In this document: positions 1-56,381 of the stretch, piece after piece
Numbering within the stretch: position 1 is the first letter of the stretch
Layout: every line of letters begins with the position of its first letter
Origin: Methanofollis liminatans DSM 4140
GTDB taxonomy: Archaea > Halobacteriota > Methanomicrobia > Methanomicrobiales > Methanofollaceae
Direction of reading: 5' to 3'
Assembly: GCF_000275865.1 (NCBI RefSeq)
Contig: NZ_CM001555.1
Span: forward strand, 1,261,706 to 1,325,705
DNA: 64,000 nt
Notes under the pieces: model-generated
The model's input: the letters and a program-made list of their open reading frames with translations, nothing else
The model's database searches: none
Told to the model about the DNA's origin: nothing
Position numbers and translations under genes: made by a program

Positions 1-252
1 CTCCAGGACAGCAGGACTCTCCCGCACTCTCTCGAGCACGTACTTCGCGAACCCTGGATCGCGCTTCAGTCTCACCAGCATCAGGTTATCCAGGGCATGA
101 TCGATGAACCGGTCGCGCTTCTCCTCATGCGAGAGATCCTGCACCGAACAGAGAAACTCCCTGTCCGCCCGGACAGCATACGACTCCCAGAGAAAATCAC
201 GGACCGGAGATATATTGATCGTCATATCTCCATCAACAACGTCTGTTCTCAT
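1..252 (-). CDS. Unrecognised protein, N-terminal 84 residues (runs off the window)
   Basis: An open frame reads leftward from an ATG at 252 to the window edge and begins MRTDVVDGDMTINISPVRDF. The visible part is mixed charged and hydrophobic with no membrane segment or motif I recognise. A second in-frame ATG at 225 could be the real start, because neither has a clear Shine-Dalgarno site. It lies downstream of the viperin gene on the same strand, with a hairpin and T-run between them, so it may be a separate transcript. Prokaryotic viperins often sit next to a nucleotide kinase; nothing visible here says this is one. Confidence 0.5.
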   Translation of the reverse strand, partial: MRTDVVDGDMTINISPVRDFLWESYAVRADREFLCSVQDLSHEEKRDRFIDHALDNLMLVRLKRDPGFAKYVLERVRESPAVLE

Positions 253-330: not shown

Positions 331-1164
331 TCACCATGCATATACCCCTCCCCTCCTGAGGTACTGCCCCTCATCAACATATGCAAAAACCCCGGACCCC
401 AGCACCTCATCCAGGGAATATTTCCTGATCACCCGCCCTGTGTCGGTCTTCACGCGTCCCCCCGGCGTGACCATGAAATACGACCCCTCGATCATCGCCG
501 AGGACTCAAACACCGGCAGGACACCGCCGCGCAGGATGACACCCGCGTGACGGTCAGCAAAAGCCCGGAACTCCGCGTCGGTCACCGAGAGATCGGCCAC
601 CGCCCCATCATTCTCCCCCCTGATATGGAGCATCTGCAGCACCTTCCAGCGGTCGGGATCGGTCCTCCTGACGAACCCGGTCATATCCTCATCCCGGGAA
701 AGGGCGGTGACCGTCGTATTGATCTTCAATCTGATCCCGGTTTCCCTGATTGCATCGGAGAGACGGATACAGTGACCGACGTGCTGACCGTCTCCGCGGC
801 CCAGGCGCGCCTCAGTCTCCTCGGAGGCCGAATCCACCGAGAGGGCGATCCAGTCGATATACCCCCTGTGCGTCCTGACCAGTTCAGGTGTCAGCCGCGA
901 CCCGTTTGTCGTGATTGAGACAGTCATCCCCAGATCATGAGCAACCCGGCAGTATTCGAAGAGCTGCGGGTGGAGCAGGGGTTCCCCGCCGGCAAAATTG
1001 ATCTTCTCCATCCCTGCACCGACAAGACGGGTGAGGATCCTGCATCCTTCAGAGAAAGAAACTGGAGTTTCCCCGAGGTTCCGTGCAAAACAGAACCTGC
1101 ACGAGTAGTTGCAGGCAGAGATCAGATGCCAGTTCACAGACCGGATCGTAGACGGTGTGGGCAT
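331..1164 (-). CDS. Prokaryotic viperin (radical SAM antiviral nucleotide synthase)
   Basis: Viperins are radical SAM enzymes that convert CTP, and in prokaryotes also UTP or GTP, into 3'-deoxy-3',4'-didehydro nucleotides that terminate viral transcripts. The 277-residue product has the radical SAM CxxxCxxC motif near its start (SACNYSCRFCF). It then follows vertebrate viperin closely: AGMEKINFAGGEP, the EDMT and RWKVLQ blocks, and the C-terminal block LRRGGVYAW that viperins use for substrate binding. I chose the ATG at 1164 because AGGATCAC lies just upstream; the frame also extends to an ATG at 1191. A CARF-type regulator is transcribed divergently, and the shared region holds an inverted repeat. 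No nucleotide kinase is visible beside it. The family call is firm; which nucleotide it uses cannot be told from the sequence. Confidence 0.93.
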   Translation of the reverse strand: MPTPSTIRSVNWHLISACNYSCRFCFARNLGETPVSFSEGCRILTRLVGAGMEKINFAGGEPLLHPQLFEYCRVAHDLGMTVSITTNGSRLTPELVRTHRGYIDWIALSVDSASEETEARLGRGDGQHVGHCIRLSDAIRETGIRLKINTTVTALSRDEDMTGFVRRTDPDRWKVLQMLHIRGENDGAVADLSVTDAEFRAFADRHAGVILRGGVLPVFESSAMIEGSYFMVTPGGRVKTDTGRVIRKYSLDEVLGSGVFAYVDEGQYLRRGGVYAW

Positions 1165-1202
1165 ATACAGTGATCCTATCGGGAAAACCATCAGATTAAT
1201 CC

Positions 1203-1232
1203 GAAATTGTTTCAAAAATCGGAAACAATTTA
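1203..1232. promoter_or_regulatory. Inverted repeat between viperin and CARF regulator
   Basis: GAAATTGTTTC at 1203-1213 and GAAACAATTTA at 1222-1232 form an inverted repeat with an 8-base spacer. Each half is itself nearly palindromic. It lies 39 bases from the viperin ATG and 26 bases from the regulator ATG, where a divergent operator would be expected. The same half-site recurs at 2050-2060. Binding by the neighbouring winged-helix protein is an inference. Confidence 0.6.
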
Positions 1233-1257
1233 TCTCTGCCCGTGCCTTGTTCAGGAT

Positions 1258-2037
1258 ATGCCCGAACCGCACCTCCTCTTCATCAGCGCAGGGGAGCACG
1301 TCCACGAGACCCTCCCTGCCTGCATCAAAAACCTCAAAGAGATCACCCACGCCATCGTCGTTGTGGAGGAAAGCGTCTATCATGACCTCCCCGTGGACGC
1401 AGTGCAGATGAAGACGGTAAAACCCCTTATCAGGGAGGCGATCCAGGGCGTAAAGGCGATCTGCGACTCGATGAACATCGCCTTCAGCGAGATCAGGACA
1501 GAAGACACCCGGATCAACGCGATCCGTGACGCCGTCCTCGCCGTCACCCGCCAGCACCCCGCGGCGCGCATCTCCTTCAACCTGAGCGGCGGGACAAAGA
1601 TGCTCTCCCTCTCCCTCTTCATCATGGCGCTCTGGCTCGATGCAGAGGTCTACCTGACACCGAAGAACGACCAGATCGAACAGATCCTCATTCCCCAGAT
1701 GCATCTCGACGATATCAGGAGAAACCCCAACTATCCAAAGGCCCTTGAAATCATCTCCACCGCTTCAGGGAGGTGGGTGACCCGCCAGGATTTTGCCATA
1801 GAGATGGAAAAAAACTACAAACCTTCCCGCTTCCCCGGCGATGAAAAAACAAAAAGGATACCGAACCGCGGGACCATCACAAGGATCCTCCAGCAACTGA
1901 TCGACTGGGATCTTGTCGAGGAGTCGTTCTGTGACAGGAGCAAAAAGGCGAAACAGTACTGCCTGACGCCCCACGGCGAATTTGCACAGAAGATACTCAG
2001 GTTCGAAGGCGGAACCGATGCGCCCGAGCACAAATAG
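1258..2037 (+). CDS. CARF-domain winged-helix transcriptional regulator
   Basis: The 259-residue product resembles Csa3-like and DUF6293-type archaeal regulators. The N-terminal half (residues 1-150) is a Rossmann-like CARF fold: LLFISAGEH forms the first strand and NLSGGTKMLSLSLFIMAL near residue 110 is the ligand-binding loop typical of CARF proteins. The C-terminal half (from about residue 165) looks like a winged helix, with RGTITRILQQLIDWDLVEE as the recognition region. CARF domains bind cyclic oligoadenylates or related nucleotides; the ligand here is unknown. The open frame extends to a TTG at 1207, but that lies inside the inverted repeat, so I use the ATG at 1258. No CRISPR genes are in view, so this may be a CARF protein serving viperin rather than CRISPR. 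Confidence 0.75.
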   Translation: MPEPHLLFISAGEHVHETLPACIKNLKEITHAIVVVEESVYHDLPVDAVQMKTVKPLIREAIQGVKAICDSMNIAFSEIRTEDTRINAIRDAVLAVTRQHPAARISFNLSGGTKMLSLSLFIMALWLDAEVYLTPKNDQIEQILIPQMHLDDIRRNPNYPKALEIISTASGRWVTRQDFAIEMEKNYKPSRFPGDEKTKRIPNRGTITRILQQLIDWDLVEESFCDRSKKAKQYCLTPHGEFAQKILRFEGGTDAPEHK

Positions 2038-2047
2038 TTGCAGAGTT

Positions 2048-2062
2048 TGGAAACAATTTCCA
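2048..2062. promoter_or_regulatory. Second copy of the viperin/CARF palindrome
   Basis: TGGAAACAATTTCCA is a 15-base palindrome around a 3-base centre and contains GAAACAATTTC, the half-site found in the viperin/CARF region. It starts 10 bases after the regulator stop and lies 50 bases upstream of the small gene at 2113, so that gene could be under the same control. This is a sequence match only. Confidence 0.5.
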
Positions 2063-2112: not shown

Positions 2113-2241
2113 ATGGGAAAGAAAGGTTCCATGCCCCTCGGTGCGGCAAGCCGGATCCAGGCCGCGGCCGACCGGAGCGGCACCAACCAGGGCTTCAAGT
2201 CCCGGGCGATGTCGTCGGCTGCAAAGAACAGCAAGAAATAA
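2113..2241 (+). CDS. 42-residue SMP-like small protein
   Basis: The gene starts eight bases after a near-perfect Shine-Dalgarno site (GGAGGTGA at 2101-2108), so it is very likely translated. The product is basic, alanine-rich and serine-rich. AASRIQAAADRSG followed by GFKSRAMSSAAKN matches the SMP (seed maturation protein-like) repeat seen in many short prokaryotic stress-related proteins. Function is unknown; such proteins are small and probably disordered. A T-run follows directly (2244-2251) and may end the transcript. It sits behind a copy of the viperin/CARF palindrome. Confidence 0.75.
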   Translation: MGKKGSMPLGAASRIQAAADRSGTNQGFKSRAMSSAAKNSKK

Positions 2242-3085: not shown

Positions 3086-4381
3086 ATGACACAACCCCCG
3101 AAAAAAACCCGAAAAATATCTCCAGACACCCTAACCTTCATCCACACTGCAGATCTCCACCTCGGCAGCCCCCTCACCGGCATCAGGGCGATGGACGAGA
3201 GCATGGCCGAAAAACTCATCCAGGCATCGTACTGTGCCTTCGACCGGATCGTTGACCTGGCGATCAGGGACGAGGTCGATTTCGTCCTGATCGCAGGCGA
3301 CCTCTACGACAGCCAGAGGCAGCAGATCTACGAACAGCTCAAACTCCTCCACGCCCTTGAGAGACTCAATGGCCACGGCATCATGGTCTACATCGTCTGC
3401 GGCAACCATGATCCACACAGCGCCTGGTCACGGTCCATTCGGTGGCCGGGAAACGTCCATATTATGGCAGATGACAGGCCCGAGGTCGTCTTCTTCGAAA
3501 AAGATGGAGAAAAAAAGGCGGCCATTGTGGGGGTGAGTTATCCGCGCTCTTCTGTCCTTGAGAATCTCGCCACAACATTCCCGGAGAAAGAATCAGGCTG
3601 GCCCTTCACGATCGGCCTCCTCCACGCCACTCTCGGCAGCACCAGCGAGCATGTTTCCTACGCCCCCTGCTCAGAGGAAAACCTGACTGCCACTGGCTAT
3701 GACTACTGGGCCCTCGGCCACATCCACAAACCTGCGATCGTCCGCCAGGCTGATCCGACCATAGTCTACCCGGGTATCCCGCAGGGACGCGACATTGGCG
3801 AGTCCGGTCCGAGGGGGTGCTACCATGTTGCGGTCAGGTCAGACGGCACCATCGAGCCTACCTTTGTTGAAACCGCGGAGATCTGCTGGGAAACTGCAAC
3901 CCTCTCTATCGACGGTATCGACACCCTCAGTGATCTTGACGTTGCAATCCTGGACACTCTCGACGATATACAGGAGACGAGAACTGGCAGTCAGGTTTGC
4001 TGCCGCCTCACCCTCACTGGACGGGGGGAGGTCCACCGTGATCTCAGCAGGGTGAAGGGAGCGATTGACGACCTTGCTGACCATCTCAGGGAGGTCGGAT
4101 CAGAGGTGTACATCGACCGGATCATCGACCAGACGGCCCTCCCTATCGACCGGGAAGCGCTTGTCCGGCGGGAGGATCTTATTGGCGACATTCTCCGGAT
4201 CTCTGACAATCTCCAGCAGGACCCGAAGGCCGCGGAGACTTTCGTGCCTCTCTTCAAGGATCTGTTCTCTGATAAGAGGGGGAAGAAATGCGATCCTATC
4301 AGTCCAGAGGAGATCCCTGACCTGATCAGGGAGGCCGAAACCTATCTCCTCGACCTGCTGCAGCCGGAGGAGAGGGTATGA
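3086..4381 (+). CDS. Mre11/SbcD-like metallophosphoesterase (YhaO family)
   Basis: A predicted Mn-dependent DNA exo/endonuclease of 431 residues. The calcineurin-type metal sites are all present: HTADLHLG, AGDLYDS, GNHDPH, LLHATLG and GHIHKP. The extended N-terminal form and the partner gene resemble YhaO of Firmicutes rather than classic archaeal Mre11. I chose the ATG at 3086 because GAGG lies eight bases upstream; the frame extends to a TTG at 3074. The stop overlaps the next start (ATGA at 4378), so the two are translationally coupled and likely form an SbcCD-like complex acting on DNA ends. Confidence 0.88.
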   Translation: MTQPPKKTRKISPDTLTFIHTADLHLGSPLTGIRAMDESMAEKLIQASYCAFDRIVDLAIRDEVDFVLIAGDLYDSQRQQIYEQLKLLHALERLNGHGIMVYIVCGNHDPHSAWSRSIRWPGNVHIMADDRPEVVFFEKDGEKKAAIVGVSYPRSSVLENLATTFPEKESGWPFTIGLLHATLGSTSEHVSYAPCSEENLTATGYDYWALGHIHKPAIVRQADPTIVYPGIPQGRDIGESGPRGCYHVAVRSDGTIEPTFVETAEICWETATLSIDGIDTLSDLDVAILDTLDDIQETRTGSQVCCRLTLTGRGEVHRDLSRVKGAIDDLADHLREVGSEVYIDRIIDQTALPIDREALVRREDLIGDILRISDNLQQDPKAAETFVPLFKDLFSDKRGKKCDPISPEEIPDLIREAETYLLDLLQPEERV

Positions 4382-7300
4382 AGATCGAGGAGATTTACAT
4401 CGACGGCTTCGGCCACTTTCACAATGCGAAGATAGAATCGCTGTCCCCTCACCTGACTGTCATTACAGGGCCCAACGAGGCGGGTAAATCAACTCTGCTT
4501 GAGTTCATCCGCAGGATGTTCTTCGGGTTTAAAAAACAGGGTCCGAACACCTACCCGCCTCTGAACGGGGGTGATATGGGAGGGAGGCTGCGACTGACCA
4601 CGCCTGACGAGGAGGCTGTGCTCCTTGAACGATCTGAAAAGCGTGCCGAACCCTCGCTCTTCTCAGTCGACGGAGGCCCTGCCGGCTGTACCCTGCCCGA
4701 CCTCATTGGCACGGCCGACCGGCAGTTCTTCGAGAATGTCTATGCCTTCGGCCTCGGTGAACTGAGTGACTTCAAGAGTCTCTCTGCTGGATCGATCCAG
4801 AGCAGGGTGATGAGTGCCGGGATCGGGATCACCAGAGGCTCTATCGCCGACGTCCAGACCCAGGTCCAGAAGGACTGTGATGCACTCTTCAAACCTGGAA
4901 GGGCCTGGAAAGATATCAGGATCAAGGAGATCTTCTCAGAGATCACCGACCTGGAGAAGGACCTGCGCCAGTGCACCGGGACGCAGGAGGAATACGACCA
5001 TCTCCAGTTCGAGTTGAAAGAATTGGAAAGCACTCTTGCAGACCTGAAAGACGAGGAGAAGACGCTCAGGAAGAAGATGCAGGACGCCTCAAACCTGCTC
5101 TCTGTCTGGGACGAATGGGTTGCCTATACCGAGACGAAGAAACGTCTGTCCGATCTCCCTGAGGTCGTTCCTGTCCCTGATGACGGTGTCCAGACCCTCA
5201 GGGGTCTCACCGAGAAGGCCGGGGAACTGGAGGAGGAACTGAAAGCGTGCCGCCGTGACCTCCAGCAGGCTGCCCAGAGCCTCGCAGGGTGCACTGTCGA
5301 CGAGGTAGTCTGTGCTCACGCCGACAGGATCCATGACCTGGAGAACGGCCTGAAGAAGTATCTCGCCGATCTGGACGCTTACAACGAGGCCGTCCGGGAG
5401 ACGGAGAAACTCACACAGGAGGTTGACGCCCTCGCCAGCCAGGTCGGCCTGCAGGGTGAGGGCCTCGCTTCTTTCGATGTTTCTGCCCGGACCCGTCAGC
5501 AGGTCGAAGATTTCCGGACCCATTTCTCCGACCTCAACGAGGAGGCCAGAACCCAGACGTCTGAGGGAATTCGCCTTGACGGGGAGAAGAGAGGGGTGCA
5601 GGCCAAGATACAGACAGACGAGGCGGCTCTCTCCGCCCTCTCCGTCACCGGAACCCTGGAGGAGGTACAGAAGAAAAGAGCGGCCCTCGACGATCTGAGT
5701 GTCGAGGTTCCGGCCTGGTCGAAGGCGAAGGATGAACTCGACCGTCTCATCGAGAAGGAGGCCGAGATCGGGACACGGCTGAAACAGGACGCGGCAGCCC
5801 GCGGGGTCTCTCTTCCCCGCTGGCCGGCCCTGGTGATCATGGCGGCAGGTGTGGTTGCTCTTGCCGGCGGGGTGATGATGGACTCCCTCATCATCGGCAG
5901 CGGCCTCTTCCTCCTGATGCTGGTGATTGCCGGGATTTATCTTCGGGGTGTCACACGAGAAACACCTGTCGACATTCCAGCAGGCGATGAAGTTCTGGAC
6001 ATGGCCAGAGTACGGCAGGTAAAGGAGACGGATCTTGCCGAACGGGAGTTGGCGCTCAGGAATAAGGCAAAAGAATGCGGATTCTCTACCATTCCCGATC
6101 TCTCCGCGATCAATACCATGCGATCCAAGCTGGACGGCGAGGTGCACACCCTCCAGGAGAGGGAGAGGCTGGAGAAGGCCCTGCAGGTTTCTCGCAAGAC
6201 GTGCACCGGTCTTGCCGCAGACCTCGAACGCGTACAGACCGCCCTTGCCGCGAATGCGCAAGAGAAAAAGAAGGTTGGGGAGGAGTGGCAGGCATGGCTG
6301 CATGCCGTCTCTCTCGACATCTCGCTCACACCTGAAGTCGTCCTTGATATCATTCCCAAAATCGAGAAGGCGCAGGACAGGATCAGGGCGCGGGATGAGG
6401 CCGGGATCAGGTGTGCCAACCTGAAGGAGACGATTGCAGCGTATGATACGGCGGCGGCGGGGGTTGCTGTCGCAATCGGGGCAGACCCTGCCCCCTCGGT
6501 CGAGGTGCAGGTGCAAAACGCGGTGGCATTCCTCAAGGAGCAGAGTGAGCGCAAGATGCAGTATGAGAACCTGGTAAGGGAGCACACCAGGATCCAGAAG
6601 GAAGAGGCGGCGATCGTTGGAAGACAGGGTGAAATAGCCAGAAAACGGGCTGATCTCTTTTCCCAGGCATCTGTGATCGACGAGGAGATGTTCCGGAAAC
6701 ATGCCCAGATACAGGAGGAGAGGATCAGACTCGCAAAAGAGGAGGCAGAGGCCGAACTCCGCCTGAAGAAGGCGGCGGGAGGAGACCGGGCTTTCCCTGC
6801 CTTTGTCACGCACCTGGAGAGCAACGAACGCGCCGACCTTGTAGAAACGGTAGAAGAGTGCAGGCAGCGCTTGGATGAGATCGCACCTGAAGGGGAGGGG
6901 AAGAGGGAAAGGCGCGGCCGTCTCCTGAAAGAGATAGAAGAACTCGAAGGCGACAACCATACTGCCGCCTACGAAGCGAGATTGCGGTTTCTCCACGAAG
7001 ACCTCACCGAAACCTCCCGTGCCTGGGCAGTCAGGGTGATCGCGGGCCACCTCCTCCACCAGGCGATCGAGAAGTACGAGAAGGAACGCCAGCCGGCGGT
7101 CATCCTGGAGGCGACCAGGTATTTCAGCGGGATCACCGGTGGGCGCTACCAGAAGATCTACCGGCCGATCGATGCCGATGCTGTCGTCGTTGAAGAGGGG
7201 AGTGGAAAAAGGAAGGAGATCACCGACCTGAGTCTTGGGACTGCGCAGCAGCTCTACCTCGCACTGCGGTTCGGTTATATCACCGAGTTCGGCAAGCACG

Positions 7301-7503
7301 ATGCTACTCTCCCTGCCGTCTTCGACGACGTGCTGGTGAATTTCGACCCAGCGAGGAAGAAGATGGGGTGCCAGGCGATCGCCGACCTGGCCGGGAAGAC
7401 GCAGGTTCTCTACTTTACCTGTCACCCGGAGACGGTCGCCCTTCTCACGGAGGCGCGGCCTGATGCACGGGTCATCGACCTTGGCGAGGTCGGCGGGAAT
7501 TGA
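4378..7503 (+). CDS. SbcC/Rad50-like AAA ATPase with central membrane segment (YhaN family)
   Basis: The 1041-residue product has Walker A GPNEAGKSTL at residues 31-40, long coiled coils, and the ABC signature (LSLGTAQQL) and Walker B (FDDVLVNFDP) in the last 100 residues. Unlike Rad50 it has no zinc hook. In its place, at about residues 483-525, two hydrophobic stretches (WPALVIMAAGVVALAGGV and GSGLFLLMLVIAGIYL) predict a membrane hairpin, as in YhaN. With the nuclease it overlaps it should form a membrane-tethered DNA-end-processing complex. The family role is DNA repair or control of recombination; a defence role is suggested only by context. Confidence 0.88.
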   Translation: MKIEEIYIDGFGHFHNAKIESLSPHLTVITGPNEAGKSTLLEFIRRMFFGFKKQGPNTYPPLNGGDMGGRLRLTTPDEEAVLLERSEKRAEPSLFSVDGGPAGCTLPDLIGTADRQFFENVYAFGLGELSDFKSLSAGSIQSRVMSAGIGITRGSIADVQTQVQKDCDALFKPGRAWKDIRIKEIFSEITDLEKDLRQCTGTQEEYDHLQFELKELESTLADLKDEEKTLRKKMQDASNLLSVWDEWVAYTETKKRLSDLPEVVPVPDDGVQTLRGLTEKAGELEEELKACRRDLQQAAQSLAGCTVDEVVCAHADRIHDLENGLKKYLADLDAYNEAVRETEKLTQEVDALASQVGLQGEGLASFDVSARTRQQVEDFRTHFSDLNEEARTQTSEGIRLDGEKRGVQAKIQTDEAALSALSVTGTLEEVQKKRAALDDLSVEVPAWSKAKDELDRLIEKEAEIGTRLKQDAAARGVSLPRWPALVIMAAGVVALAGGVMMDSLIIGSGLFLLMLVIAGIYLRGVTRETPVDIPAGDEVLDMARVRQVKETDLAERELALRNKAKECGFSTIPDLSAINTMRSKLDGEVHTLQERERLEKALQVSRKTCTGLAADLERVQTALAANAQEKKKVGEEWQAWLHAVSLDISLTPEVVLDIIPKIEKAQDRIRARDEAGIRCANLKETIAAYDTAAAGVAVAIGADPAPSVEVQVQNAVAFLKEQSERKMQYENLVREHTRIQKEEAAIVGRQGEIARKRADLFSQASVIDEEMFRKHAQIQEERIRLAKEEAEAELRLKKAAGGDRAFPAFVTHLESNERADLVETVEECRQRLDEIAPEGEGKRERRGRLLKEIEELEGDNHTAAYEARLRFLHEDLTETSRAWAVRVIAGHLLHQAIEKYEKERQPAVILEATRYFSGITGGRYQKIYRPIDADAVVVEEGSGKRKEITDLSLGTAQQLYLALRFGYITEFGKHDATLPAVFDDVLVNFDPARKKMGCQAIADLAGKTQVLYFTCHPETVALLTEARPDARVIDLGEVGGN

Positions 7504-8013: not shown

Positions 8014-10380
8014 ATGTCAGGCATATTTGGTGTTCTGTTAATTCTTATTTTTATATTCGGGTTGTTCGTTCTCGTTGTTCTCCGTGCTTTAAAGACAAAA
8101 ACTGAAAACTTACCTCCTTCCCCGGACAATACAAAAAAATCTGAAAAAAGCCTGGATCAGGAGACTCGAAACGTCCAGAAAGCTACGAACAATGTCATAC
8201 CTCATCCTCCCTCATCCACTCATAGAACGACGTCTGCTGCTGTTCAGGATGCAAGGAGATCAGGTACACAGATCTCACAGAAAAACGTCCTTTTCTGGGC
8301 CGGGATGCACACCCCCATAACACTATGTGGGTACACCATCAACGATCCCCTCACCTACTGGTCCCACGGCAGTGTTTCCCCGGACGAAGCCTCCTGCTTG
8401 GACACAACGTTGCCATCAGGTCGATCATACGATCCTGATACTCCTCCTCTCCCCTACTGGCCGCGTTATTCCCAGATCACTCCCGATCAGAGGGCGAGAT
8501 ATCTCTCTTGGCTCTCGACCGGGAAGAATAAAGATCTCGACGAGATCGGATATGCCTTCCTGTACTTCTACGGACTTGAAAGACGGGTACTCATTGACGG
8601 GCAAGACCATGACCTGATCGTACCCGAAGTTCGGCGTCTTCTGGACAGATTCCGTACATCCAGTTCATTTAATTCCTATCTCGGCGGTTTTCTCGCGTAT
8701 CTGGCAGCAATACGACTGGAAATCCTGACCGAGAGAGAACTCAACGAATACTTCCCATATATGGCCGAACTTACCGAAGTCGGGACTATGGTTGCACTCG
8801 CATGGTATGCTCAAAAAGAGAAACCACTCCCCTGGCAGCTGGCCTACAGCGTCTCACACCACTTTTCCGGGACTGCCCTCCCATCTGTGGTTAAGAAAGA
8901 GATCTCCTATCTGGAAAGATTATTCCAAGCACGGTATCTCTCTCACCTCGAGGGCGGCCTTTGTGCTGTTCCTGCAAAATCTCCATATAAACTTGAGTAT
9001 CATCCAGCCAGCCCGAGCCTTCTCGCATCTCTCTCCAGTACAAGAGGGGTTGCCAATCTATCCTGTCTCATTCCCAACCCCCTCGGGCGCAAAAAGCAGT
9101 TCAGCACCCTGTTTACCCTCTGGGAGGGTTGTGTAATGGAGATCAAGCCATTTCTTACTCAAATATCAAAAAGTAGTGGGACAATGACCCGGCAGGCATA
9201 TGCCTGCCTGCCAGAAGAACTGAGATTGACGATATCCCACCCTGATCAGGATTCTTGGGACCGCCTCTTCAAGGAGCACAGAGAAGAAAATCCTTGGGCA
9301 CGTGTCCCAGTCTCAACCCTTGCCAGCGTCGTCGAGATCGAAAAGCGCGACCGTCTTACCCCCACACAGAGCCGGGACCTCTCCCAGACTGCGCATGACG
9401 GGGGGTATATGCTCCTCCCCGATCCCCGTCATGCAGGGAGCGGGTATCAGTGGGAGGAAAACCTCGTGCTCCTTCCCCTACCTGCCGATGACGCAGAGAC
9501 TTTGAGCCCATCATTCCCTTCATATGCCCTGATGCTTGAACTCGGGATCGGTATCGCCGCCTCAGACGGCCGTGTCGACACCGAGGAACGTGCACACCTC
9601 CACACATATTTTGGCGAGACTCTCACACTCACACCCTTCGAGCACCAGTGCCTTGAGGCACTGGAAGATCTCTATCTCCAGAATCCCCCCTCACTGACGC
9701 GGCTTGGCAAGAGACTGAAAGAAGGACTTGAGCCGGAAACCCGTCTTTCTGTCGCTCAGTACCTTGTCGCGATAGCCAGGGCAGATGGAGATGTTGATCC
9801 CAGAGAAAAAAAGAACCTCGACCGGATCTTCAAGGCGATGGAGGTCGAGGAGGGATATTTACAGTGGCTTCTGGCCCGTGCAGGAAGCATGGACCCTGCA
9901 AATGCTCCTGTTGTCGTTCGCAGCGGAACGATATCTACCGGCGGGGAACCCATCCCCATGCCTGCCGCAGAGGCCACTCCTTCCTTCGCCATCGACAAGG
10001 GGGCCGTTGCCCGGATCCTGGATGAGACCAGAGAAGTCTCACAGATCCTCGGTGATGTCTTTGCAAAGGAGGAAACAGAGTGCGGGGACTTCGTCCTCGA
10101 CAGGGAGGAGACACCGGAGGATATCAGCGTACAGGTGATGTCCTCCTCAGGTCATGGTATGGAGGGGCTTCAGCCCCGCTATGTACTGGTCCTAGAAGAA
10201 CTTCTCACCGCAGAGATATGGACAAAAGATGAGTTTGTTCATCTTGTCCAGTGTCACCACTGCATGCCTCAGGCGACGCTTGAAGCGATCAATGTCTGGG
10301 CTGAAACAGAACTGGGAGATTTTCTTCTTGAAGATGAGGATGAATCGATACGGGTCTACCGGAACCTGATCTCTTCATGA
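8014..10380 (+). CDS. Membrane-anchored TerB_N/TerB/TerB_C domain protein
   Basis: The 788-residue protein opens with a transmembrane helix (about residues 4-23, FGVLLILIFIFGLFVLVVL) and a charged low-complexity linker to about residue 85. A TerB_N domain follows, shown by the WPRYSQITPDQRARYLSWL block and the YAFLYFYGLERRVL block. Near residues 505-615 is a TerB-like helical domain with two acidic repeats (ASDGRVDTEERAHL and ARADGDVDPREKKNL), and the last 100 residues look like TerB_C. TerB proteins scaffold DNA-processing or metal-stress complexes at the membrane. The next two genes encode a BrxD-like ATPase and a BrxHI-like helicase, a known association for TerB_N/TerB_C proteins. There is no enzymatic motif here, so a scaffold role is inferred. 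Confidence 0.82.
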   Translation: MSGIFGVLLILIFIFGLFVLVVLRALKTKTENLPPSPDNTKKSEKSLDQETRNVQKATNNVIPHPPSSTHRTTSAAVQDARRSGTQISQKNVLFWAGMHTPITLCGYTINDPLTYWSHGSVSPDEASCLDTTLPSGRSYDPDTPPLPYWPRYSQITPDQRARYLSWLSTGKNKDLDEIGYAFLYFYGLERRVLIDGQDHDLIVPEVRRLLDRFRTSSSFNSYLGGFLAYLAAIRLEILTERELNEYFPYMAELTEVGTMVALAWYAQKEKPLPWQLAYSVSHHFSGTALPSVVKKEISYLERLFQARYLSHLEGGLCAVPAKSPYKLEYHPASPSLLASLSSTRGVANLSCLIPNPLGRKKQFSTLFTLWEGCVMEIKPFLTQISKSSGTMTRQAYACLPEELRLTISHPDQDSWDRLFKEHREENPWARVPVSTLASVVEIEKRDRLTPTQSRDLSQTAHDGGYMLLPDPRHAGSGYQWEENLVLLPLPADDAETLSPSFPSYALMLELGIGIAASDGRVDTEERAHLHTYFGETLTLTPFEHQCLEALEDLYLQNPPSLTRLGKRLKEGLEPETRLSVAQYLVAIARADGDVDPREKKNLDRIFKAMEVEEGYLQWLLARAGSMDPANAPVVVRSGTISTGGEPIPMPAAEATPSFAIDKGAVARILDETREVSQILGDVFAKEETECGDFVLDREETPEDISVQVMSSSGHGMEGLQPRYVLVLEELLTAEIWTKDEFVHLVQCHHCMPQATLEAINVWAETELGDFLLEDEDESIRVYRNLISS

Positions 10381-10396
10381 AAGGGTGAATGAAATT

Positions 10397-11707
10397 ATGG
10401 TTCAGATAAAATCACGTGAACGGAATGCAATTATCCAGTCTTTGCAGGCGGGCGTCGTTCCCAGGATCGGCCTCCAGCACATTCAGGTCGGGAGAAAAGA
10501 TGAGATCAACGCGATCATAACGGATCTTGACCGCATTACCGATGACGGGGCCACGATCCGTTTTGTTATTGGTCGTTACGGTTCAGGAAAGAGTTTTTTC
10601 CTGAATCTTTCCCGCCTCGTTGCACTGGAAAAACAGTTTGTGGTCGTCCAGGCAGACATCACGCCCGACCGCCGCCTCCATGCCACGGGAGGGCAGGCCA
10701 GGGCATTGTATACCGAACTGATGCATTCCATAGCCACCCGTGCAAAGCCAGAAGGCAGCGCTCTCGCAAGTGTGATCGAGCGCTGGGTTTCAGACCTTGA
10801 CTACCGTCTCAAGCAGGAAGGAAAAGGGGACGCGGAGGTTGTCCATGCAATCCATCAGGAACTGCTGCCCCTCCAGGACCTTGTCAGCGGCTACGACTTT
10901 GCCAGTGTTATCGGGCGTTACTATGAGGGGTTCCAGCGAGGCGACGACATTCTCATGTCCTCCGCTCTCAGATGGCTGTCCGGTGAGTATGAAACAAAGA
11001 CCGAGGCACGCAACGACCTTGGCGTCAGGACGATCGTCCGGGACCAGAACATCTACGACTACCTCAAACTCTGGGCGGCTTTTGTCAGGATGGCCGGATA
11101 CGCAGGGCTCATTGTCAATCTCGACGAGATGGGAGTGCTCTCCCATCGTCTCAACAGCACACAGGCACGGAACGCAAATTATGAGATGATCCTGCGTATC
11201 GTAAATGACTGTCTGCAGGGAAGTGTCTCGGGTATCGGGTTTATCTTCGCAGGGACAGACGAATTTTTTGCCGATCCACGCCGCGGGATCGCAAGTTACG
11301 AGGCTCTTGCCTCCCGCCTCAATGAAAACGAATTCGCCGTCAATGGTTTAAAAGATATCTCCGGCCCGGTGATCAGGCTGGATAACCTCACCCCCGAGGA
11401 TCTCTTTGTCCTTTTCCACAATATCAGGAATGTATTCTCCAGAGGGGACCCCTCTGTGTATCTGATCCCTGACGATGGCATCACACGATTCATGGGTCAC
11501 TGTTCAGGCGTAATGGGAGCGGAGTTCTATCAGACCCCCCGAGAAGCCGTAAAAAAGTTTGTGGGGTTTCTTTCCGTGCTTGAGCAGAACCCAGGAACAC
11601 GCTGGGAAGACCTCCTTTCCGGACCGTCGACGACGCCTTCTGGAGACATACCGGAGAGCGAGGGAATCCGCGGGAATGACGACGACCTCGTGACCTTCAG
11701 GTTGTAG
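10397..11707 (+). CDS. brxD: BrxD-like P-loop ATPase (DUF2791)
   Basis: The 436-residue product matches the DUF2791 ATPases called BrxD in type 2 BREX. It has VPRIGLQHIQVGR near the start, Walker A GRYGSGKSFF (residues 57-66), NLDEMGVL as Walker B, and a sensor region FAGTDEFF. I chose the ATG at 10397, which has GGGTGA eight bases upstream; the frame extends to a GTG at 10385. It follows the TerB gene by 16 bases and precedes the helicase. No type 2 BREX core (pglW, pglY) lies nearby, so this is the stand-alone TerB-BrxD-BrxHI arrangement. Its exact role, probably loading the helicase, is not established. Confidence 0.8.
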   Translation: MVQIKSRERNAIIQSLQAGVVPRIGLQHIQVGRKDEINAIITDLDRITDDGATIRFVIGRYGSGKSFFLNLSRLVALEKQFVVVQADITPDRRLHATGGQARALYTELMHSIATRAKPEGSALASVIERWVSDLDYRLKQEGKGDAEVVHAIHQELLPLQDLVSGYDFASVIGRYYEGFQRGDDILMSSALRWLSGEYETKTEARNDLGVRTIVRDQNIYDYLKLWAAFVRMAGYAGLIVNLDEMGVLSHRLNSTQARNANYEMILRIVNDCLQGSVSGIGFIFAGTDEFFADPRRGIASYEALASRLNENEFAVNGLKDISGPVIRLDNLTPEDLFVLFHNIRNVFSRGDPSVYLIPDDGITRFMGHCSGVMGAEFYQTPREAVKKFVGFLSVLEQNPGTRWEDLLSGPSTTPSGDIPESEGIRGNDDDLVTFRL

Positions 11708-11784
11708 GTGAGCAGGAGGAGAGATATCTGGCACGAGACGCCTTTTCCCTGCTCCATCCGACAATACAGAGGGAACTGTACAGG

Positions 11785-13905
11785 ATGCGCTGGAGCGAAC
11801 TGCGCCAGATCCAGGTCGAAACCATCTTTGCAGTCAAAGATGGCACAGAGCACCTGATCATCTCTGCAGAGACGGCATCGGGCAAGACCGAGGCGGCCTT
11901 CCTCCCGATACTTTCCGAAATTATTGGGCGGCGAGAGGGAGGGATCGGCGCACTCTATGTCGGTCCGCTTAAGGCTCTCATCAATGATCAGTTCAGGCGT
12001 CTTGAGGATCTCTGCGAGGCGTCAGAGATCCCGGTCTTCAAATGGCACGGAGACGTCGGGAGTGCACAGAAAAAACGGTTTCTCTCAGAACCGTCAGGGG
12101 TGCTCCTGATCACGCCCGAGTCGATCGAGTCCCTCTTCATCAACCACTCTTCGGAGGTACATCTCCTCTTTCGATCCCTGCCATTCATTGTCATCGACGA
12201 GATCCATGCCTTCATCGGAGCTGAGCGGGGCATGCACCTGAAGAGTCTCATCGCAAGGATCGCTCAGATCAGTGCGGTAAGACCCCGCATCATTGGTCTT
12301 TCCGCAACACTGGGAGATCTTCCCACAACACAGAGGTGGTTGTCGCCCGGAGAACCGGAGAGCGTCCGGATCATCGCCGGCCAGGGAGGAGAGAAGGAGA
12401 TCTCCTTCCTGATCAAAGGGTATCTCTTCGATACAGTCTCATATGATGACGGAGATGATGACCCGACCCTCATAAAACTCTCTGAAGACGTCATCAAGCA
12501 TTTCTACGGAAAAAACAGTTTGATCTTCATTAACAGCCGGTCGAAGCTGGAACTCTATACTGACCAGGTGAAAAGATCCCTCGAAGAGGCACGGTTGCCC
12601 AACCTCTTCAGGATCCACCATGGTTCTCTCTCCCGAGTCGAGCGGGAGGAGACGGAGACGGCCTTGAAGTCCGGGCGCCCGACAGCGACGTTCTGTTCGA
12701 GCACTCTTGAACTTGGCATTGATGTCGGAGACGTCTCCCGGATCGGACAGATCGGGGTTCCATGGTCGGTGCACTCTCTCTGCCAGCGCCTTGGAAGAAG
12801 CGGGCGACGGGAGGGAACACCTTCGGTCATGATTATGTTTGTGCCGGAGTCGCAGAAAGCTGAGATGGACCTTGTCGATCGTCTCTCTCCCTCTCTTCTC
12901 CGTGCGCTTGCCCTCTCCAATCTCATGCTCCGTAGGTGGTGCGAACCGCCAGAGACCAGTCTACTGCATTACTCGACCCTCATCCAGCAGATCCTGAGCG
13001 TGATCACTGAACGGGGCGGGGCCGGGGCGGTCACCCTCTATAATGTACTCGTGGAGAGAGGGGCTTTTTCGTGGGTGACACAATCCGAGTTCACCGGCAT
13101 CCTGCGGAGCATGTCCGAGTCCGATCTGATCGAACAAGATCCTGAAGGGCTGTTGATTTTAGGATTAAAGGGGGAGCGGCTTGTTCATCGTATGGACTTC
13201 TATGCCTGTTTCCCGACAGAACCAGAGATGAAGGTGCTCTGGAAGAGCAAACAGATCGGGAGCATCGCACCGACCTATGGTATAGAGACGCTGGAGTACC
13301 TGATCCTTGCAGGACGGCGCTGGGAAGTCCTCAGTGTCGACCTTGATAGGAAAGAGGTTCTTGTTCAGCCGTCGCACGGCGGTAAGGTACCGTATTTCGC
13401 AGGGGGAGGAACAGTTGATATTCATCCGGTTGTCCACCAGACAGTGCGGGACCTGCTCCTCTCAGACACTGTCCCCGCATATCTCGATACGCCAGGAAAA
13501 GCACTCCTCGCTTCGGCCCGATCTGTCGCCAGGTCCACCGGCGTCGCTGAGTTTGATCTGGTGCCGGTCCCGAATGGTACATACTGGTTTCCCTGGGCTG
13601 GGTCAGCCGTCCTGCGTACACTCATGATCCTCGGGTCGTGCTGGGGAGGTTTCGATGTCCAGGAGAGGGGAATTGCTCTTTTCTTTCATGGAGCATCGCC
13701 CGACCGGGTCCTGAATTTTTACACAGATATTCTCGCGACGTGTCCGTCGAAGACCGAGATCGCACAGAAGTACGGCGATCTGATCCGGGAAAAATATGAT
13801 TCCTATGTGCCGGAGGCACTCCTTGTGAAAGGATTTGCAGAGAGATATATCGAGACGCGGGTTGTGCCTCCACGGACGGTTGCTCCTTCTGGCGAATGCC
13901 ATTGA
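11785..13905 (+). CDS. brxHI: BrxHI/Lhr-like DEAD/DEAH-box helicase
   Basis: A superfamily 2 helicase of 706 residues with Walker A (ETASGKTEAAF, residues 32-42), DEIHAF (about 138), SATLGD, FCSSTLELGIDVGDV and QRLGRSGR. This is the Lhr-like pattern of BrxHI. The ATG at 11785 is the only ordinary start codon in the frame, yet the 25 codons before it also read like helicase sequence (ARDAFSLLHPTIQRELYR), where relatives normally begin. Translation may therefore start at a non-standard codon such as the CTG in that stretch, or a small change has removed the start. It follows brxD by 77 bases. Confidence 0.85.
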   Translation: MRWSELRQIQVETIFAVKDGTEHLIISAETASGKTEAAFLPILSEIIGRREGGIGALYVGPLKALINDQFRRLEDLCEASEIPVFKWHGDVGSAQKKRFLSEPSGVLLITPESIESLFINHSSEVHLLFRSLPFIVIDEIHAFIGAERGMHLKSLIARIAQISAVRPRIIGLSATLGDLPTTQRWLSPGEPESVRIIAGQGGEKEISFLIKGYLFDTVSYDDGDDDPTLIKLSEDVIKHFYGKNSLIFINSRSKLELYTDQVKRSLEEARLPNLFRIHHGSLSRVEREETETALKSGRPTATFCSSTLELGIDVGDVSRIGQIGVPWSVHSLCQRLGRSGRREGTPSVMIMFVPESQKAEMDLVDRLSPSLLRALALSNLMLRRWCEPPETSLLHYSTLIQQILSVITERGGAGAVTLYNVLVERGAFSWVTQSEFTGILRSMSESDLIEQDPEGLLILGLKGERLVHRMDFYACFPTEPEMKVLWKSKQIGSIAPTYGIETLEYLILAGRRWEVLSVDLDRKEVLVQPSHGGKVPYFAGGGTVDIHPVVHQTVRDLLLSDTVPAYLDTPGKALLASARSVARSTGVAEFDLVPVPNGTYWFPWAGSAVLRTLMILGSCWGGFDVQERGIALFFHGASPDRVLNFYTDILATCPSKTEIAQKYGDLIREKYDSYVPEALLVKGFAERYIETRVVPPRTVAPSGECH

Positions 13906-55504: not shown

Positions 55505-56381
55505 GTGCGCTCTCCATGAAATCAGGGATCAGGACATGCTCTGTTATCTCTTCACGATTAATGCTGTTTTCGGTATTGTTCTCGCACATCTGAGATCAGG
55601 AAATGAGGACATAGAGGAGAAGAACCTCTCGCTCCATCAAACGAGTACGAAAAGAGCTCTGCCCGCCTCTTCACCGACATGGTGCACCGGAGGGAGGGGG
55701 AAGGTTCGGAGAAAGGTTTCCCAAAAAGTTCTAGATTGTGATATTATAATGCTGCAAACAGTGTCCAGAGTACGGAGCGTATCGAAACAATTTCAAATAA
55801 CACTGGAGTGAAAACGGCATATCTCGCAATATATTCTATTTTTTGCATTCTAAAGAATAAATGGGCTTCATTTCCATCATGTCGCCATATCGTTCCTCTC
55901 AGGCCCTCTCACGTTATTGAATCGAGAGAAACCCTCTATTGATGGCTGCTCTCTTTTTTGGCTGACGGGGATCTGTGGTGATGGAGAACACAGTCAGAAT
56001 CGGCGTATGAGCGGAGCGCCCAGAACAAGATAAGTACCATGCAGGTGACACCTATCAGGAAGACAAACCATCTGCTGTTCCGCAAGGCAGCCATTGCCAT
56101 CTACACCGCACAGACCGCCCAAATCTCTTCTTATCTGCCGGAGCTAGCCACAGATGCAGGATATCACATTTCTCAGAGTGGGATACTCACTATCCGACAT
56201 AGGAATCATGCCTTCTGGAGAAGCGGCATGAGTCTCACAAGAATTGTGGTACGCCGCCCCCGATTCTGGCCGGGAGTTCATATTCGCTACCTGAACGACT
56301 ACGAGCGAAACGATAGAGCCATTTCACCCAATCAAACCGAATAAATTATCAGAAGAGAGACGGATAGAACCAGATGATCTC
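55505..56381. other. Divergent gene-free region between helicase and Wadjet operon
   Basis: This 877-base gap holds no gene I can support. It carries GAAACAATTTC at 55783-55793, the same 11-mer as in the viperin/CARF operators, which is notable for an exact match this far away. A short frame at 56039 lacks a ribosome site. The promoters of both flanking genes should be here. Confidence 0.45.

Follow-up and report, generated by a model that had tools for sequence, protein, structure and literature searches.

A viperin locus of Methanofollis liminatans with a divergent CARF-winged-helix gene, a conserved palindromic operator and an associated small gene

Background

To our knowledge, the switching-on of prokaryotic viperins has been little studied. 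In Methanofollis liminatans DSM 4140, a viperin gene lies back to back with a gene encoding a CARF domain and a winged helix (CARF-wHTH), and an earlier note, made from the DNA letters alone, had proposed that the latter protein senses a signalling nucleotide and controls the former gene through an inverted repeat between them. The locus raises the question whether an archaeal viperin has its own regulator and, if so, which sites it reads, in which direction it acts and which ligand it senses.

Gene content of the viperin locus

The window, i.e., the whole stretch of 64,000 nucleotides analysed, contains the viperin gene on its minus strand (331..1164). Its stop is at 331 and its frame is open up to 1191, the true start likely being the internal ATG at 1164, as judged by comparison with relatives. 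With the start set there, the divergent arrangement with the CARF-wHTH gene (plus strand; ATG at 1258, stop ending at 2037) and the gap of 93 bases between the two start codons (1165-1257), both described before, were borne out. The identity of the viperin gene is firm, its product matching the NCBIfam model NF038283 (253.4 bits; cut-off 180), the PADLOC model pVip (247 bits; 4e-74) and solved viperins (1.6e-39), and containing the radical SAM CxxxCxxC motif as CNYSCRFC. Directly after viperin comes a gene for a TPR protein (PADLOC PDLC02907, 695 bits, 4e-209; Pfam TPR repeats), of which the 5' part is in the window (1..225, minus strand) and which runs leftwards from 225, mostly outside the window, to genome position 1258994. 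On the other side, the CARF-wHTH gene is followed by a gene of 42 codons (2113..2241, plus strand).

The CARF-wHTH protein matched the PADLOC 'Csa3' model PDLC02909 (335.8 bits; 4.1e-101), while its Pfam CARF scores were weak. In its AlphaFold2 model (pLDDT 86.8), the CARF domain precedes a winged helix of the MarR type, and the nearest solved structure was Csa3 of Saccharolobus solfataricus (2wte, Z 15.2 over 203 residues; a further structure is 6wxq), with which it shares this architecture over the full length. In contrast with Csa3, to which it is 14% identical, the protein is not encoded next to cas genes and falls far under the cut-off of the NCBIfam Csa3 model (TIGR01884; 18.3 bits versus 60.2). 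In one relative (G095; L088:6627-7604), the CARF frame continues without a stop into the 42-amino-acid frame, so that both may be made as a single protein.

Conservation of the viperin-CARF pair

The CARF family was present in 55 of 232 genomes of the order. As the earlier reading would have it, the pair is conserved in relatives, the CARF gene adjoining viperin at 21 of the 26 viperin loci of the order. Conversely, all 17 CARF loci scoring above 200 bits in these genomes adjoin viperin. The same holds for the loci of G118:C3 and G113, which score about 180 bits, and for the two short divergent variants of G118:C1 and G067. No CARF-family match was found near the remaining 5 of 26 viperin loci (G049, G057, G085 and two in G098). 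In the four of these that were read (L056, L057, L060 and L061), viperin is divergent to a gene of more than 440 codons without a family match; one such gene was scanned and gave no Pfam or PADLOC match. In a second family, consisting of Methanosarcina and Methanolobus relatives, viperin adjoins seven of eight CARF matches. Among the loci recovered are some from Methanoculleus, Methanocorpusculum, Methanosarcina and Methanolobus. The two genes are divergent throughout, save in G102 and in one locus of G120, where they are on the same strand. Furthermore, pairwise identities of the CARF proteins correlate with those of the viperins (r 0.76; Mantel 0/2000), a correlation to which shared ancestry contributes.

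It is conceivable that these genes owe their proximity to a common defence island alone, having drifted together in the absence of functional coupling, as other defence genes are indeed present in the window, for example a Shango system. However, the pair, its orientation, the operator described below and the 42-amino-acid gene recur across several families and in two major methanogen lineages, and the recurring pair is surrounded by different genes, which makes this explanation extremely improbable.

Other arrangements of the family were encountered as well. In one variant (L102 and L104), viperin is divergent to a gene for a short CARF-like protein, after which come a gene of 172-176 codons, whose product may itself be Rossmann-like, and a longer gene. 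In one genus (L026-L033, L035 and L037-L039), CARF relatives, of which a genome may have several, are arranged tail to tail with a gene of 266 codons that had no Pfam match over the cut-off; neither viperin nor the palindrome was found at these loci. Carriage of the family by viruses or plasmids was rejected, as no relative was found in viral contigs or plasmids.

A conserved operator and its candidate reader

The inverted repeat announced by the earlier note is present in the intergenic region and consists of GAAATTGTTTC (1203-1213; unit 1, on the viperin side) and GAAACAATTTA (1222-1232; unit 2), separated by eight bases. In relatives, the same region carries an operator with the consensus GAAAYWRTTTC-N8/9-GAAACWATT, which in most of the short regions begins at the near-fixed distance of 38-39 bases from the start of viperin. 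The two-unit operator was present in 17 of 26 intergenic regions, which scored above all 200 shuffles with a consensus of 20 positions derived from the same 26 regions. The other nine have no clear GAAAC operator, and five of them contain other palindromes. Since this consensus was drawn from the regions that it scored, the searches of whole genomes for the two-unit pattern and for a single unit weigh more. A strict two-unit pattern was searched in 40 whole genomes. Of the 20 with the pair, 14 had a match at the pair site; the site before the small gene was matched in G120 and G102, and six scattered matches lay elsewhere. Among 20 control genomes, picked for lacking the pair and including one with a CARF-less viperin (G085), a match was found in G139 alone. 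Counted by genome, a match occurred in 15 or 16 of 20 versus 1 of 20 (Fisher p ~1e-5, computed with 15). The 2.48-Mb genome of M. liminatans itself contains a single match to the two-unit pattern.

A single unit, GAAACWATTTC, occurs four times in this genome, two of which are in the viperin locus, and exactly twice in both G095 and G019, each time within that locus. Its count per genome ranges from 0 to 4, which outside the locus is the level expected by chance. The further single-unit sites of M. liminatans (genome position 991771 and window position 55784) have no clear conserved target, so that a wide regulon in this genome is disfavoured.

The repeat might instead represent nothing but the BRE/TATA core promoters of two divergent genes, read by no dedicated regulator: its units face outwards at promoter distance, and AATTTATC resembles a TATA box. 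This was rejected as very unlikely, since the unit occurs elsewhere in genomes at chance level only; moreover, unit 1 retains the palindrome GAAAC-N-GTTTC, which is not a TATA box, other palindromes substitute where the helix-turn-helix differs, and the promoters of unlinked copies of the 42-amino-acid gene and of viperin-less CARF genes are free of the palindrome, the latter displaying a TATA-like stretch.

Indeed, site and DNA-reading helix vary together. Proteins with GTxTK or a near variant in the recognition region go with GAAAC sites, as read by eye, a rule that also holds in two loci of the second family (L110 and L111; approximately 33-35% identity). Those with FNSL in this region, likewise read by eye, go with other perfect palindromes at the same intergenic place, namely TAATAAATAGATTTATTA in L105-L107 and TAGATWWATCTA in L108 and L109. 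This covariation, together with the lack of a palindrome at viperin-less CARF genes, suggests that the palindromic site is read by the CARF protein.

The 42-amino-acid gene as a further target

The half-site said to return ahead of a small gene was confirmed as GAAACAATTTC at 2050-2060, upstream of the ATG (2113) of the 42-amino-acid gene, and comparative genomics supports the idea that it marks this gene as a further target. The gene was found in 13 of 20 genomes with the pair versus 1 of 20 controls (p 1.4e-4), usually about 100 bases after the CARF gene (12 loci); in G025, it lies between the viperin and TPR genes, and in G120, about 4 kb from viperin. As read by eye, the palindrome stands upstream of all 14 linked copies, approximately 50-90 bases away and in some cases with one or two changes, versus none of five unlinked paralogues. 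As it accompanies linked copies wherever they are placed, the site tracks the gene, not the position. In G102, it is even retained ahead of a broken copy. Comparison thus shows that the 42-amino-acid gene belongs to the locus. Three tandem paralogues without the palindrome were seen away from the viperin loci of G120 (G120:C1:2175478-2175883; L171, L173 and L174).

Direction of control

Taken together, the pairing and the presence of the operator at the viperin, regulator and 42-amino-acid genes suggest a self-contained, switchable antiviral unit, in which the CARF-wHTH protein would be the dedicated transcription factor of a self-regulated defence locus. A dimer of this protein would bind the palindromic unit GAAAC-W-RTTTC, of which two copies separate viperin from the divergent CARF gene and a third precedes the 42-amino-acid gene. 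Such a dimer, of the CARF-MarR type, is probably a repressor of the viperin-TPR genes, the 42-amino-acid gene and the CARF gene itself, relieved by a ligand. By binding a small molecule, probably nucleotide-like, that arises on infection, the CARF domain would lift this repression. Viperin, once derepressed, would make ddh-nucleotides that terminate chains, and a candidate for a second effector is the TPR protein, whose C-terminus carries a HEPN-like motif. The nine intergenic regions lacking a clear GAAAC operator and the five CARF-less viperin loci of the order speak against this reading.

Repression is favoured because the units sit near the expected core promoters. The likely TATA box of the CARF gene is covered by unit 2, and in front of the small gene the unit occupies roughly the place at which one unlinked copy of that gene has its TATA box; these positions argue for repression and autoregulation. 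Alternatively, the protein may be an activator, with dimers on the GAAAC units, perhaps in the ligand-bound state, recruiting the basal machinery at TATA-poor promoters. MM_0565, a CARF transcription regulator of Methanosarcina mazei, is described as mainly activating (PMC7465815), and some units of the 42-amino-acid gene, such as GGAAACAGTTCCCGG, lack a TATA-like stretch, which keeps activation a live rival. In view of the TATA boxes that coincide with units, which fit a repressor, activation is possible rather than probable. Unlike the protein described here, MM_0565 adjoins a type I-B CRISPR locus, and no distinct binding motif was found for it (PMC7465815). As the conserved operator, the candidate regulator and the genes of the small regulon are now defined to the base, the control of viperin becomes directly testable.

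The ligand of the CARF domain

If repression is relieved by a ligand, one candidate is cA4 or another cyclic oligoadenylate made by type III CRISPR, with viperin as a further arm of CRISPR signalling. This is in line with the CARF fold and with an SGGTK motif like that of CARF proteins binding cyclic oligoadenylates, and Cas10 was found in 3 of 25 genomes with the pair. However, the Cas10 palm domain was not found in the other 22 of 25, that of M. liminatans included, and this genome contained neither mCpol nor a CD-NTase (SMODS) match above the cut-off; three Cas1 matches are present elsewhere in it. SMODS matches in 16 genomes were rejected as CD-NTases, as only two were above the cut-off; frames of about 460 amino acids, present in most, suggest CCA-adding enzymes. 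Furthermore, binding of cA4 by Csa3 requires Phe10, Phe14, Gly96 and Arg98 (PMC8844856). When 26 CARF relatives were aligned on the conserved glycine, the positions of the stacking phenylalanines of motif 1 were never aromatic (E, A or Q at Phe10; N, E, K, Q, S or D at Phe14), and in motif 2 the glycine was present in 26 of 26, with lysine (21) or alanine (5) for Arg98. A phenylalanine or tyrosine two residues further on could stand in for a missing motif 1 phenylalanine. In this genome, the lack of Cas10, of mCpol and of a CD-NTase above the cut-off, along with the missing cA4-stacking residues of the protein, renders cA4 from type III CRISPR unlikely as the ligand, and the ligand of these proteins is likely other than cA4.

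Occurring mostly in Cas10-less genomes, this CARF protein is a candidate for a CARF domain with a ligand that is not a CRISPR cyclic oligoadenylate. More specifically, the domain might have left CRISPR signalling and respond to a nucleotide that infection alters or that viperin itself produces (a ddh-nucleotide or derivative), so that the output of viperin would act back on its own operon, on the TPR-HEPN-like effector and on the 42-amino-acid protein. This proposal is speculative and rather unlikely.

The TPR protein and related systems

A TPR protein of about 1000 amino acids follows viperin in many loci. This protein, with its HEPN-like motif, and the 42-amino-acid protein form a set of candidate partners for archaeal viperin. 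At the TPR C-terminus, an RNxxxH motif (RNGAAH) is invariant in nine diverse relatives. RNxxxH is a signature of HEPN RNases, and the motif conforms to the HEPN pattern Rx4-6H. The model of the C-terminus is all-helical (pLDDT 83); the RnlA ribonuclease scored Z 7.6, which is within the background of helical bundles, no HEPN family was prominent in the fold comparison and no Foldseek match was below 0.001. In Methanolobus loci and in Methanosarcina sp. KYL-1, a kinase-like gene and a gene for a second viperin-like enzyme lie between the viperin and TPR genes (L148:3482-4948 in KYL-1); the one kinase-like gene that was scanned matched VakA of PADLOC.

A viperin-TPR system with the same order, viperin then TPR, is known from PADLOC and has been named as archaea-only (PMC12988326). 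The viperin systems of PADLOC-DB 2.0.0 comprise the same proteins as these loci, i.e., pVip (PDLC02903-02905), TPR (PDLC02907), 'Csa3' (PDLC02909) and VakA (PDLC02911), and the neighbouring numbers of these models indicate that their makers were apparently aware that these genes go together. The earlier claim of a new link between CARF and viperin was therefore partly anticipated, the gene set being in models of 2023, whereas its pairing, conserved operator and small-gene target held up in comparative genomics. The operator, the regulon and the HEPN-like motif appear to be new: a search for viperin with CARF or Csa3 returned no paper with a title or abstract that concerned this pairing, TPR, CARF and Csa3 are absent from the text of Leao 2024, and the literature found, within a reach that left out Bernheim 2021 and the PADLOC system definition, contained no operator, regulon, 42-amino-acid member, HEPN-like motif or lack of Cas10.

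Lastly, two further gene groups were noticed in the window. PADLOC matches to SngA, SngB and SngC (8014-13905) correspond to the Shango defence system, a few kb from the viperin locus. A metallophosphatase and an AAA protein of 1041 amino acids (3086-7503) are SbcD/SbcC-like and gave only weak PADLOC matches, such as LmuB.
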